Assembly: GCA_902768335.1 (NCBI GenBank)
Contig: CACXKR010000008.1
Coordinates: 1-45,090 of the forward strand
DNA from: an uncultured Erysipelotrichaceae bacterium
GTDB lineage: Bacteria; Bacillota_I; Bacilli_A; RFN20; CAG-826
Direction: 5' to 3'
DNA: 45,090 nt
This document shows, one piece after another, positions 27,260 through 43,802 of the stretch; the stretch's first letter is position 1; the number at the start of each line of letters is the position of its first letter. The translations under genes were made by a program, and so were the position numbers. A model generated the notes under the pieces. It had not been told where the DNA came from. It searched no databases and saw nothing but the letters and a program-made list of their open reading frames with translations.

Positions 27260-28264
27260 TTATTTGTTGAACTCCTCAATTAACTTCAAAACCTTAATAA
27301 CATCTTTCTTATATGTTTCGGTTGGTTTTGGATCGAATTGTTGTTGGAGTGGTAAGACCATCAAAGGATCGTCGTAGCCCATGCAAACAAAGATTCGACC
27401 CTTTTGTAATGAAATAGATAAATCGACAAGTTCTTTATTCATTTCAATTGAAGTAAGAATCTTCTTAACATCTGCAGAGATAACTTTCTTCCATTCTTTG
27501 TTGTTGGAATAGATAATCATTTTCTTATCTTCTTGAACCGTTTTTACACCATCTAGATTGGTTGGCGGAAGCGCTCTTTTATCACCTTTAAAATAAATAT
27601 AAAGTCCATCATCATCTTTATAATTTGAAGCGGCATATAAATATTTACCAACGAAAGCTGGGTATAAGCGTTTATCTTTTCGAATTTGAGCGGCAGCATC
27701 TGCGACTGCAATTGGTACATTATTATATGTAAATTCAGTTAAGCCTCTACTACCAACATCAACAACATCTTTGAAAAGGTTGTTATCTAAAAATGCATCA
27801 TTTTGAATCTTGCCAGGAAATTGAGCTTCGATATTGCTCGCAATATCACCAAAGACAAAATCGTTGATATTTTTGTAATATAGATTGAAATATGCGTTCA
27901 TCTTTTGACGAATATATTTACGTGCAAAAACAGTAAATAAAATTGTAAGTGCCAAAGCACCAACGAGCATTCCAATCATAATATAGAGCGAATTAGCAAT
28001 TCCTAAATTAGGAATGACAACCGCTCCTACAATGACTGTAGCGATAGCGATAAAAGATACGACCCATTTAAAAACATTTTGGGTTCTATAAATCTTTAAA
28101 AAATCTGCGCGTGCTTTTTCAATCGCTTCAAGATATGAAGATGAATAAGTAATTGGCTCTGGTTCAGGTTGAGCTTCCTCAGCTGGAGCTTCTTCCTTGT
28201 TCTCTTCGGTAGGAGCGATTTCTTGCGCCTCTTCTAATACTTCTAATTCGTTTTCGTTTTCCAT
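27260..28264 (-). CDS. Membrane protein with acidic N-terminus, DUF3137-like
   Basis: 334 aa. Residues 1-40 are a Glu/Ala/Pro-rich disordered tail (EEAPAEEAQPEPEP); two membrane spans follow at about 65-85 and 90-112; the remaining 220 residues are soluble and cytoplasmic. The pattern LFKDVVDVGSRG...AFVGKYLYAAS, an edge strand GLYIYFKGD and a late ICMGYDDPL-like strand (IFVCMGYDDPL) resembles DUF3137 proteins. Function unknown. AGGTGA stands about 5 bases before the ATG. Upstream of the NtdP-like gene in the same unit. Confidence 0.55.
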   Translation of the reverse strand: MENENELEVLEEAQEIAPTEENKEEAPAEEAQPEPEPITYSSSYLEAIEKARADFLKIYRTQNVFKWVVSFIAIATVIVGAVVIPNLGIANSLYIMIGMLVGALALTILFTVFARKYIRQKMNAYFNLYYKNINDFVFGDIASNIEAQFPGKIQNDAFLDNNLFKDVVDVGSRGLTEFTYNNVPIAVADAAAQIRKDKRLYPAFVGKYLYAASNYKDDDGLYIYFKGDKRALPPTNLDGVKTVQEDKKMIIYSNNKEWKKVISADVKKILTSIEMNKELVDLSISLQKGRIFVCMGYDDPLMVLPLQQQFDPKPTETYKKDVIKVLKLIEEFNK

Positions 28265-28326: not shown

Positions 28327-29358
28327 TTATTTATTCGGCGTTGGGAAACGCTTATTAACGCGAATAAACGGACCATAAACCGCCATAATTAAGGCGATGC
28401 TTATTAATCCAGATATTGAAACATATAACGAGTTATATTCCATTGCAGGAACTAAATCATATCCATAAATAATCATTGAAGAAACGGTTCCTCCGATGAA
28501 ACGAATAAACGTTGAAATTAAAGCGCCGACAAAGATGAAAATTTCACCTTTCAAATTATAATTGGTTTGGTCTTGACCAAAAATAAAAGGAGTGAAGAAT
28601 CCAAGAACACAAACCGAACCGAATCCTAATAAGTAATCAAAAGGATAAGTTGCGATTCCATAACCGTCCGTGATACATGAGATTAAACCATAGGCGATAC
28701 CTGCGCCAATGAAACCTTTAATAGGTCCTTTTCTTAGTGCCAATATAAATAGAGGCAACATTTGGAAATTGATTGATCCTCCAGTTGGCATTTGCACAAT
28801 CTTAACAAAGTTAAGAGCAAGGGCAAGACCAATCAAAATGCCCATCTCTGTGATATCTGAAACAGTAATACTTATTTCTTTTGAAGCAATCGCTAAACAT
28901 AAGAAGGCTGCAATAAAGAAAATAATTATTGGAAGAACGAAGCAGAAATAAACATCATGAACGTTATAACTCATTTCTGTAATTAAACTCACAACTGTTG
29001 CGGTGACATCATTTGCTAAAATTGCTGACATTGCAGCAACTAAAAACAAAAGAACAGAAATGGTATAGAAACTATTTTTTAATTTTCCTAAAAAGATAAA
29101 TCCACAACCAAGAAGCGGAAGGACAAGATAAGTTAATATAAAGAAAACTTGTGTACTCTTGCCTGCACTTTTTGAAAATAAAAGATCAGTTAAACGGTAA
29201 ACTGTGTCAATCTTTTCGCCATCTATTTTTACTCTTAAATCAAAGAAAGGACCGATCATACTTAAGCCAACGCATAAAACAACGATTCCAATCAAAATAT
29301 ACGGCAAATACATAATTAAAAAGCCTTTAACTTTGTCAAATTTACTTACTTCTTCCAT
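28327..29358 (-). CDS. thiT: ThiT-like thiamine ECF transporter subunit with an extra N-terminal membrane domain
   Basis: 343 aa. The C-terminal part (about 168-343) matches ThiT, the substrate-binding S component for thiamine: TEMGILIGLALALNF, QMPTGGSINFQMLPLF, ALRKGPIKGFIGAG, YPFDYLLGF, and the late NSLY. Residues 1-165 add four predicted spans (about 13-33, 71-91, 98-115, 138-158) not found in ordinary ThiT of about 190 aa. A TPP riboswitch stands just upstream, which supports thiamine as substrate. The ATP-driven EcfA/EcfT module is not in the window. The ribosome site AAAGGCGG lies inside the riboswitch terminator hairpin. Confidence 0.88.
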   Translation of the reverse strand: MEEVSKFDKVKGFLIMYLPYILIGIVVLCVGLSMIGPFFDLRVKIDGEKIDTVYRLTDLLFSKSAGKSTQVFFILTYLVLPLLGCGFIFLGKLKNSFYTISVLLFLVAAMSAILANDVTATVVSLITEMSYNVHDVYFCFVLPIIIFFIAAFLCLAIASKEISITVSDITEMGILIGLALALNFVKIVQMPTGGSINFQMLPLFILALRKGPIKGFIGAGIAYGLISCITDGYGIATYPFDYLLGFGSVCVLGFFTPFIFGQDQTNYNLKGEIFIFVGALISTFIRFIGGTVSSMIIYGYDLVPAMEYNSLYVSISGLISIALIMAVYGPFIRVNKRFPTPNK

Positions 29359-29365
29359 AAAAAAA

Positions 29366-29383
29366 TCCGCCTTTCATAGCGGA
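29366..29383 (-). terminator. TPP riboswitch expression platform: terminator hairpin carrying the ribosome site
   Basis: Minus strand TCCGC - TATGAAAG - GCGGA followed by seven T and then the thiT ATG. The Shine-Dalgarno AAAGGCGG is the loop end and 3' arm of this hairpin, so the same structure can stop transcription and hide the ribosome site when TPP is bound. Confidence 0.7.
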
Positions 29384-29389
29384 AATAAC

Positions 29390-29480
29390 TAAAACGTACC
29401 TCCGCTAGCATTACCTAGATCAGGTTAGGTCAGCTCTCAAGTAAGAGCAATCTCAGCCGGATTACGTCCAGCACCCTCTT
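29390..29480 (-). ncRNA. TPP riboswitch (THI element)
   Basis: Conserved minus-strand blocks in order: GGGTGCTGG, CGGCTGAGA (CTGAGA at 29456-29451), ACCTAACCTGATCT (CCTGATCT at 29424-29417), GGTAATGCTAGCGGAGG. This is the standard thiamin-pyrophosphate aptamer. TATAAT (29490-29485) sits right upstream, within the gap behind ung. It controls the ThiT-like gene. Confidence 0.93.
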
Positions 29481-29484
29481 CATT

Positions 29485-29490
29485 ATTATA
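29485..29490 (-). promoter_or_regulatory. -10 box of the TPP-riboswitch transcript
   Basis: TATAAT immediately upstream of the aptamer; the -35 region falls inside the 3' end of ung. Confidence 0.6.
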
Positions 29491-29495
29491 TTACT

Positions 29496-30152
29496 TTAAT
29501 TCTGCCAATCAATAGGTTTCACACCCTTAGAAACTAAGTATTCATTACAACGCGAAAATTGTTTTAAGCCAAACCATCCTCCGTGGTTCGCGCCAAGAGG
29601 CGATGGATGAACGCTTTTTAAGATGATATGTTCTGGATTTGCGACGTATTTTGCAAATTTTTGAGCAAAATTCCCCCACATCATAAAGACAATTGGTTGA
29701 TTTAAATTATCCAAATATTCCATTAAATCAATCATGAATAAATCATATTCTTCTCGGTGGTGAGAAAGAGGCTGCCCTTCTCTAACCGAAAGATAAGCGT
29801 TGATTAATAGAACACCTTGTTTAGCAAGATAAGTTAAATCTCCATCATTTCGCATCTTTGTTCCTAAATCTGATTCAATTTCCTTATAAATATTCACTAA
29901 TGATGGTGGAAGCTTAACTCCGCTTGGAACAGAAAATGATAATCCCATGGCTTGCCCAGGTTGATGGTAAGGATCTTGCCCGATAATAACGACCTTAATG
30001 TTTTCAACTTCCGTAAGCTCAAATGCATTGAACATTAACCGCCTTGGAGGATAAATTGTTTGATGAGAATATTCATAATTCAAAAACTCGTGAAGCGACT
30101 TAGAATAGTCTTTTTTAGCTACCTCATCAAAGAATGGTTTCCAGGATTTCAT
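29496..30152 (-). CDS. ung: Uracil-DNA glycosylase
   Basis: 218-aa family 1 UDG, base-excision repair of uracil in DNA. Water-activating loop GQDPYH (58-63), the uracil-binding MWGNFAQ strand and the leucine loop HPSPLGA. Complete. Its ATG lies 7 bases after TATAAT (30165-30160), and no ribosome site is present, so the mRNA is probably leaderless. Divergent from the glycosyltransferase gene at 30211. Confidence 0.96.
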   Translation of the reverse strand: MKSWKPFFDEVAKKDYSKSLHEFLNYEYSHQTIYPPRRLMFNAFELTEVENIKVVIIGQDPYHQPGQAMGLSFSVPSGVKLPPSLVNIYKEIESDLGTKMRNDGDLTYLAKQGVLLINAYLSVREGQPLSHHREEYDLFMIDLMEYLDNLNQPIVFMMWGNFAQKFAKYVANPEHIILKSVHPSPLGANHGGWFGLKQFSRCNEYLVSKGVKPIDWQN

Positions 30153-43413: not shown

Positions 43414-43802
43414 TGGTGGAGTCGGCGGGAGTTGCACCCGTGTCCAAAGTAGGCCCCACAATAACGTCTACAGCTTAGACGATATTTATTATTTAACGTG
43501 CATTCGTATATCGTAACTAGTCACGCGAGACTCCTTAACTTTCGGTCAACTTTAGCGAGTCAACTATGTCTTCCTATCCTTTTGGTATGACACCATACTT
43601 GAGCGTGAAAGGCTAAAACCTCAAGCGGCGCTCTGTCCGACGTTTCGCCGGTCCCTATGTCGGGTAGCTTATGCTAAGCAGAGAGATTGAGCTCTAGGAG
43701 CTCTCATATAACTGTTGTCAGTTATTTTTGTTTAGTATTTATGGTTACCAGCCAGCTGCAGTTATTGCCAGGCATCAACTCTGTCGAAACTAAGTCGACC
43801 CC
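43414..43802 (-). ncRNA. ssrA: Transfer-messenger RNA (tmRNA)
   Basis: 389 nt. Acceptor stem GGGGTCG (5' end, 43802-43796) pairs with CGACTCC near the 3' end, which finishes with an encoded CCA (43414). T-arm GGGTGCAACTCCCG and the GTTTCGACA 5' block are conserved tmRNA features. The tag reading frame, by alignment to the B. subtilis resume site, runs 43719-43669 and encodes DNSYMRAPRAQSLCLA then TAA, the stop lying in the hairpin GCTTAGCATAAGC (helix 5). It rescues stalled ribosomes with SmpB. The tag ends LCLA instead of the common LAA. Confidence 0.93.

Follow-up and report, generated by a model that had tools for sequence, protein, structure and literature searches.

ThiT, also known as YuaJ, is a thiamine S-component of the group II ECF transporters (PF09515; structures 3rlb and 4tkr). 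In the model set out in passages of one source, an S-component binds its substrate outside the cell and topples within the membrane before EcfT catches it, and the loaded S-component is proposed to rotate by itself in the bilayer (PMC4820897). Passages of a second source report that S-components dock on EcfT through a small-xxx-small motif, and that ThiT no longer works with the ECF module when either motif alanine is mutated (PMC11109136). The same passages describe a 5TMR and NRAMP-like fusion, in which an integral membrane protein likewise precedes an S-component-like fold, and call it the only assembly whose fused domain is an integral membrane transporter. That fusion differs from the one described here in that its S-component-like fold is a sensor domain and the partner is metal-transporter-like (PMC11109136). 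In open-access titles, abstract beginnings and some passages, we found no description of a ThiT with an added membrane domain.

The locus analysed here lies in a 45,090-nucleotide stretch of DNA (hereafter, the window) and encodes a protein that resembles ThiT in its fold (Z 20), the docking motif of helix 1, a TPP riboswitch and a Tyr/Asp pair at the place of Glu84-Tyr85. The protein differs from ThiT in carrying 163 extra N-terminal residues with four membrane spans, in replacements at two thiamine-site positions (His125 by Gly, Ser or Ala among the relatives, and Trp133 by Tyr) and in an equivalog score under the cut-off. The extra domain is itself comparable to the TARP gamma subunits, the claudins and the calcium-channel gamma subunits, with which it shares a predicted four-helix bundle that has strands in the loops after helices 1 and 3. 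Unlike those proteins, it is bacterial, is fused to an ECF S-component and lacks the first-loop Trp and Cys, and by sequence it matches them at most marginally. LetA of E. coli (9n8w), also a bacterial membrane protein, contains a region with broadly this fold, but it is the lipid transport partner of LetB and has no ThiT part.

The reading frame and its riboswitch leader

The gene is a single frame at 28327-29358(-) that starts with ATG and encodes 343 amino acids. The preliminary description had proposed that a four-span domain is fused in front of ThiT, and this fusion is real: residues 1-163 form the four-span domain and residues 166-343 form a ThiT-type ECF S-component, in one frame (Table 1). 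Residues 169-325 are recognised as Pfam family PF09515 (Thia_YuaJ) with 69.7 bits (cut-off 25.8; E 4.3e-19), and residues 1-163 match no Pfam family at E <=1. Hydropathy places four spans ahead of the ThiT module, at 14-32, 71-89, 97-115 and 139-157.

Table 1. Features of the thiT locus, in window coordinates.
Feature	Position	Strand	Basis
Downstream neighbour, 334-aa protein	27260..28264	-	nothing convincing in Pfam or NCBIfam
ThiT-type S-component module, residues 166-343	28330..28863	-	PF09515; structural Z
Gly290, at the place of L. lactis ThiT His125	28489..28491	-	profile alignments to 3rlb and 4tkr
Small-xxx-small docking motif Gly173-xxx-Gly177, ThiT helix 1	28828..28842	-	alignment
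Junction, residues 162-165, from N-terminal domain helix 4 to ThiT helix 1; proposed hinge	28864..28875	-	helix ends in the model
N-terminal domain, residues 1-163	28870..29358	-	AlphaFold2 models and fold searches
Expression platform: 6-pair hairpin (29383-29366) and T7, ending at the ATG	29359..29383	-	terminator-like scan
TPP riboswitch aptamer (RF00059)	29382..29488	-	48.5 bits (Rfam gathering score, 54.3), E 9.2e-9 in a 301-base scan, model positions 1-105
Upstream neighbour, uracil-DNA glycosylase (named by eye)	29496..30152	-	conserved synteny

As the preliminary description had also held, a TPP riboswitch stands before the whole protein; the RF00059 match lies directly ahead of the long-form ATG. 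Because the aptamer scores below the gathering score, a whole-window Rfam scan at that threshold omits it. The sole match in the window at the gathering score is a tmRNA gene at 43414-43802(-) (94.2 bits). Besides the aptamer before thiT, no other TPP riboswitch turned up in the window's genome, using strict search filters by which weak ones can be lost.

The expression platform was the one candidate returned by the terminator-like scan, and shuffled sequence averages 1.0 in the same region. In the centroid fold, the 5' arm of the hairpin pairs alternatively with AGCGG at the 3' end of the aptamer. The RNA fold of the whole leader has a z-score of only -1.57, with 17 of 200 shuffles equally good, so the switch is argued from the two alternative hairpins and from relatives rather than from energy. 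Among relatives, 39 of 65 long-form leaders have a hairpin of comparable kind ahead of the ATG, compared to 9% of shuffles. A pattern for the TPP riboswitch, which is a plain text pattern and not the Rfam model, occurs near 71 of 76 long and 3 of 4 short loci (best 80 of 98 relatives). Three long ThiT loci (L097, L098 and L101), which lie near the g26 forms in the tree, have no such pattern within 400 bases. A promoter scan gave nothing above shuffles. Since riboswitch and hairpin both end at the long-form ATG, we take this to be the regulated start, and abundant TPP would then turn down the whole protein.

Among the best 80 of 98 relatives, the 334-aa gene follows thiT on the same strand in 63 loci, and it and the uracil-DNA glycosylase gene are both on the thiT strand in 59.

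Short forms are known among the relatives, which raises the case that translation starts near residue 165 and yields an ordinary ThiT. However, the sequence contains no in-frame ATG, GTG or TTG between residues 154 and 171. The next candidate, M172, sits within the first ThiT helix (166-183 in the AlphaFold2 model) and past Glu171; a start there would drop this residue, although all 58 aligned long forms have it. The riboswitch and hairpin run to the long-form ATG and the N-terminal domain is under purifying selection (see below), which also count against an internal start. We therefore regard a start near residue 165 as untenable and such a product as next to inconceivable. The gene almost certainly encodes one two-domain membrane protein, and the joining of a claudin-like four-span domain to a ThiT-type S-component is real, inherited and regulated.

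Spread, constraint and fold of the N-terminal domain

A survey of 96 genomes of relatives, including the window's own, gave a match in 60. Of the 30 proteins that were read from these loci, 28 are long forms, with 317-376 residues as read; the other two, in G005 and G011, are short and come from the same genus as the window. Another 20, weaker matches are mostly short, several of them in the window's own family. We also scanned one genome per species for 84,980 species and kept the best 80 of 98 relatives. In this set, 76 have an N-terminal extension of 113-233 residues and four are short, with starts set by script as the first ATG after the aptamer pattern; two of the 76 are cut by contig ends. 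The peptide pattern used for the scan favours this family, and 76 of 80 (best 80 of 98 relatives) is not the share among all ThiT. Record titles of the scan relatives name uncultured Erysipelotrichaceae, Bacillales, Bacilli and Mollicutes, many from rumen or faeces. The long form is thus the usual form among near relatives; the spread of the N-terminal domain was one of the checks suggested in the preliminary description.

In a tree built from the ThiT module only, the long forms need 7 changes (shuffled mean 21.6), and in a second such tree, which leaves out nine rows of the first and L215, they need 6 (shuffled mean 23.1). A clade of 61 rows in the first tree (support 93) is long throughout. 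Five g26 long forms were placed in the second tree and fall inside a clade of 11 long forms (support 95). There may have been a single gain of the N-terminal domain, with losses later.

Sequence conservation is very different in the two halves. Mean pairwise identity is 18.5% in the N-terminal domain versus 47.3% in the ThiT module (1653 pairs, correlation 0.66). Values of dN/dS are 0.043-0.457 for the N-terminal domain in the 13 of 14 close pairs for which they were computable, and 0.028-0.409 for ThiT in 14 pairs; judged by these ratios, the frame of the N-terminal domain is under purifying selection. The stretch equivalent to residues 158-171 is 14 residues long in 52 of the 58 rows; five rows have 13 residues there and one has 17. 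A domain that is free in sequence and held at a fixed distance from ThiT helix 1 fits a structural role.

The structure of the full protein was predicted with AlphaFold2 from an alignment of the window's protein with those of 57 long loci out of the 76 (58 long forms in all), which leaves out near-copies, contig-cut loci and nine loci with an uncertain start. The full-length model has a mean pLDDT of 92.7 and a pTM of 0.90, and the N-terminal domain modelled alone has a pLDDT of 90.1 and a pTM of 0.84. The preliminary description had suggested predicting the full protein together with EcfT/EcfA; the prediction made here, of the protein by itself, gives a claudin/TARP-like N-terminal domain and a C-terminal ThiT fold. 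In the model, the N-terminal domain has helices at 3-35, 68-90, 96-127 and 138-161. Two strands (37-45 and 48-55) lie in the loop that joins helices 1 and 2, and a third (131-136) lies in the loop that joins helices 3 and 4.

Compared with solved structures, residues 14-165 match TARP gamma-8 (Z 12.2, 145 aligned, rmsd 4.2), and the domain alone matches a TARP chain (Z 11.4, 146 aligned, rmsd 4.2) and LetA (9n8w; Z 10.8, 154 aligned, rmsd 6.3), all of which lie in the range, Z under about 13, where helical bundles may match by a common arrangement. Foldseek, with the domain alone, returned TARP gamma-2 (E 6.1e-4) and claudin-15 (E 2.4e-3). Nearly all fold matches are TARPs and claudin kin, although the match rows contain many copies of the same few proteins and their numbers are not independent. 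By sequence profile, the domain matches the calcium-channel gamma-1 subunit marginally (E 0.076). We favour a real likeness of fold because the strands lie in the same loops, TARPs and claudins dominate the matches, and the gamma-1 profile match is separate from them.

Claudins carry a motif of Trp and Cys in the first outer loop. The first loop of the N-terminal domain (residues 36-67) contains neither Trp nor Cys, no Pfam claudin family is listed for any of the 58 aligned members, and a viral structure library gave no match at E <=0.001. From the model, we call the N-terminal domain claudin-like in fold, but not a claudin.

Separate small membrane proteins of the window's own genome match the profile of the N-terminal domain (L114 1354-2034, E 3.4e-8; L115 1501-2007, E 2.0e-4), and a profile match of some kind, ThiT included, occurs in 42 of 59 genomes. 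Given such matches to separate proteins, in this genome and in relatives, the domain is probably derived from a protein that is common in these bacteria. No other S-component joined to the domain was seen in the 59 genomes. Six long frames among the profile matches were considered as further fusions; five were set aside by eye as chance, unrelated matches. The sixth, L169 (645-1994, in G032), encodes 450 residues with a zinc-ribbon-like N-terminus and several spans, which include further four-span stretches, and its C-terminal part matches the profile. It should also be noted that some ThiT proteins of the family or order have multi-span additions at the C-terminus: L163 (from 1527), L168, L220 (1110-2183) and L222 (711-2006). 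The L220 addition is the only one of the four to match the N-terminal domain profile over its length (E 0.0015, assuming a space of 100 sequences), and this weak match would represent an independent fusion at the other end of ThiT.

Thiamine site, TPP-making enzymes and cargo

Residues 163-340 of the model superimpose on 4tkr with Z 20.2 (173 aligned, rmsd 2.4) and on 3rlb with Z 19.6, and PF09515 is found at E <=0.1 in 57 of 58 aligned relatives. Against TIGR02357, the NCBIfam equivalog for thiamine-transporting ThiT, the protein scores 49.2 bits and falls below the cut-off of 108.45, so we describe the module as a clear yet divergent ThiT. The window's genome encodes a second S-component-like protein (L175 1914-2546, contig C7), with a PF09515 score of 21.5 bits that is under the cut-off and no N-terminal domain.

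In L. lactis ThiT, His125 contacts thiamine, according to passages of PMC5037267. At this place, the 76 long loci (best 80 of 98 relatives) have Ser in 51, Gly in 20 and Ala in five. At the place of Trp133, the window has Tyr298, and Tyr occurs in 55 of 58 rows. Trp34 was considered as a further lost thiamine contact and dropped, as the aligned Listeria ThiT also has no Trp there.

TPK (PF04263) was found in none of 35 genomes of the window's family, several of them more than 90% complete, in 11 of 24 other genomes of the order, and in 12 of 146 genomes of a larger family sample. ThiE and ThiL gave no match above cut-offs in 59 genomes (one weak match each), and transketolase-type enzymes that use TPP are present in 57 of the 59. 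The genomes surveyed are draft assemblies. For most of those sampled from the family, no usual enzyme for converting thiamine or TMP into TPP was detected.

Where the family has TPK, thiT is usually beside it. In 10 of the 12 TPK-bearing genomes, the two genes adjoin, with the same flanking genes wherever the stretch reaches and matches them; six of these ten thiT genes are long (genus g26) and four lack the N-terminal extension. Among the best 80 of 98 relatives, a single locus stretch contains TPK, and its thiT is a short form. The six g26 long forms that adjoin TPK all keep His where L. lactis ThiT has His125, and His is present there in 12 of 13 genomes with TPK versus 3 of 29 without. The scripted count was 11 of 13 (Fisher p 5.5e-6, ignoring kinship), and became 12 of 13 when the shifted row G035 was read as His. 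The comparison counts 42 genomes and leaves out 18 of 60 rows without TPK status. The residue pattern picked the wrong segment in L216 and none in L221 and L222, where a profile reading gives His. As g26 long forms keep both His and TPK, the N-terminal domain and the change in the thiamine site are separate matters. We had considered that the domain is tied to the loss of TPK, and rejected this because of the six g26 genomes with a long thiT beside TPK and because short forms also occur without TPK.

Taken with the altered thiamine site, the absence of TPK, ThiE and ThiL from the genomes sampled suggests that TPP itself may be imported. The L. lactis protein is known to bind TPP as well. TPP may accordingly be the main cargo where the usual kinases are missing, a reading from gene content and site residues that we hold with somewhat less than even confidence. 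However, G026, G069 and G079 keep His without a detected TPK, G068 has Ser with TPK, and the counts ignore kinship and come from draft assemblies. The alternative is that ordinary thiamine is imported and an unrecognised kinase makes TPP. The six g26 long forms beside TPK indicate that long forms can serve thiamine, enzyme absence is based on three families, and the three genomes that keep His without TPK are also in keeping with thiamine. This reading has to account for the replacement of His125 in all 76 long loci (best 80 of 98 relatives), none of which has TPK in the stretch examined, and for the family genomes without TPK, including those that are more than 90% complete. We consider TPP import and thiamine import with an unrecognised kinase about equally likely, so thiamine, too, is a plausible cargo that falls a little short of an even chance.

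Possible roles of the N-terminal domain

The reading we prefer overall, at about even odds, is an anchored two-domain S-component. The C-terminal ThiT half would capture some form of vitamin B1 outside the cell, and the small-xxx-small motif of its helix 1 would dock on the shared EcfT/EcfA module, so that the vitamin is released inside. The N-terminal domain would act as a built-in auxiliary subunit, an upright anchor that fixes the place and angle of the S-component in the membrane. In the model, only four residues (162-165) separate helix 4 of this domain from ThiT helix 1, and in the toppling step ThiT would swing about this short junction while the N-terminal domain stays upright. The predicted sheet of the N-terminal domain would lie on the outer side, a placement taken from ThiT topology, which would make toppling of the whole protein unlikely.

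Both positions of the docking motif are Gly, Ala or Ser in all 58 rows. Among the 96 genomes surveyed, 86 have EcfT, as do 62 of the 63 good ones of relatives. Replacement of EcfT by the N-terminal domain, considered because the window's own genome gave no EcfT, was dropped, since good relatives' genomes with EcfT include those with long forms. The idea that the added domain may affect coupling to the ECF module, put forward in the preliminary description, gains support from the conserved docking motif and the nearly fixed length of the junction. Several observations speak against the preferred reading: the domain is absent in relatives with the same riboswitch, and so is not essential for ThiT; no EcfT was found in the window's own assembly (89.4% complete); and the protein misses the equivalog cut-off for thiamine ThiT. 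The claudin-like fold is itself open to the objection that Z 11-12 is in the range of a common arrangement and that the gamma-1 match is marginal. An anchoring or other auxiliary role for the domain is a tentative assignment, to which we give rather less than even weight.

The same absences could mean that the N-terminal domain is a dispensable, loosely constrained addition, derived from a common four-span domain and without a role in transport. Its low mean identity agrees with this, as do its absence from G005 and G011, which belong to the same genus and have the same kind of riboswitch, and the profile-related separate proteins in the same genomes. However, the domain is kept in 76 of 80 loci (best 80 of 98 relatives), is under purifying selection and joins ThiT at a nearly fixed length, and in the 59 genomes it was seen on no other S-component. 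We find a dispensable addition unlikely for these reasons. Less likely again is a role on the outer side, with the sheet serving as a lid over the binding site or as a grip on a partner that delivers the vitamin. The predicted three-stranded sheet between helices 1 and 2 and helices 3 and 4 would suit such a role, and loop L1 shields the substrate in other S-components, according to passages of PMC5037267, but the sheet region is highly variable in both length and sequence in the alignment. The suggestion in the preliminary description that the domain is a second transport module fares worst. The domain does cross the membrane four times by itself, claudins assemble into channels, and LetA, among the matched structures, serves lipid transport; however, no transporter family matches the domain, the best fold matches are auxiliary subunits and claudins, and the domain is missing in relatives that look functional. 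We consider a second transport module highly improbable.

An anchored S-component can be combined with the cargo argument into a single proposal, in which this is a new kind of S-component for finished TPP, in bacteria that no longer phosphorylate thiamine by the usual route, with a claudin-like fixed anchor and ThiT on a short hinge. We regard all of these parts holding together as unlikely. If true, the protein would be a natural tethered construct on which the toppling of S-components could be tested, and auxiliary parts with a claudin fold would not be an animal invention in membrane transport. The toppling step is central to ECF transport and still a matter of debate. A ThiT tethered by a short junction to a four-helix bundle with a predicted outer sheet is unlikely to topple as one compact body, and it either bends at the junction or works differently. 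The protein also offers a bacterial case of a claudin-like fold within a transporter subunit. An import route for TPP would bear on the sharing of vitamin B1 among gut bacteria. The fusion may be most useful as a naturally tethered S-component with which to examine toppling, and as a candidate TPP importer.
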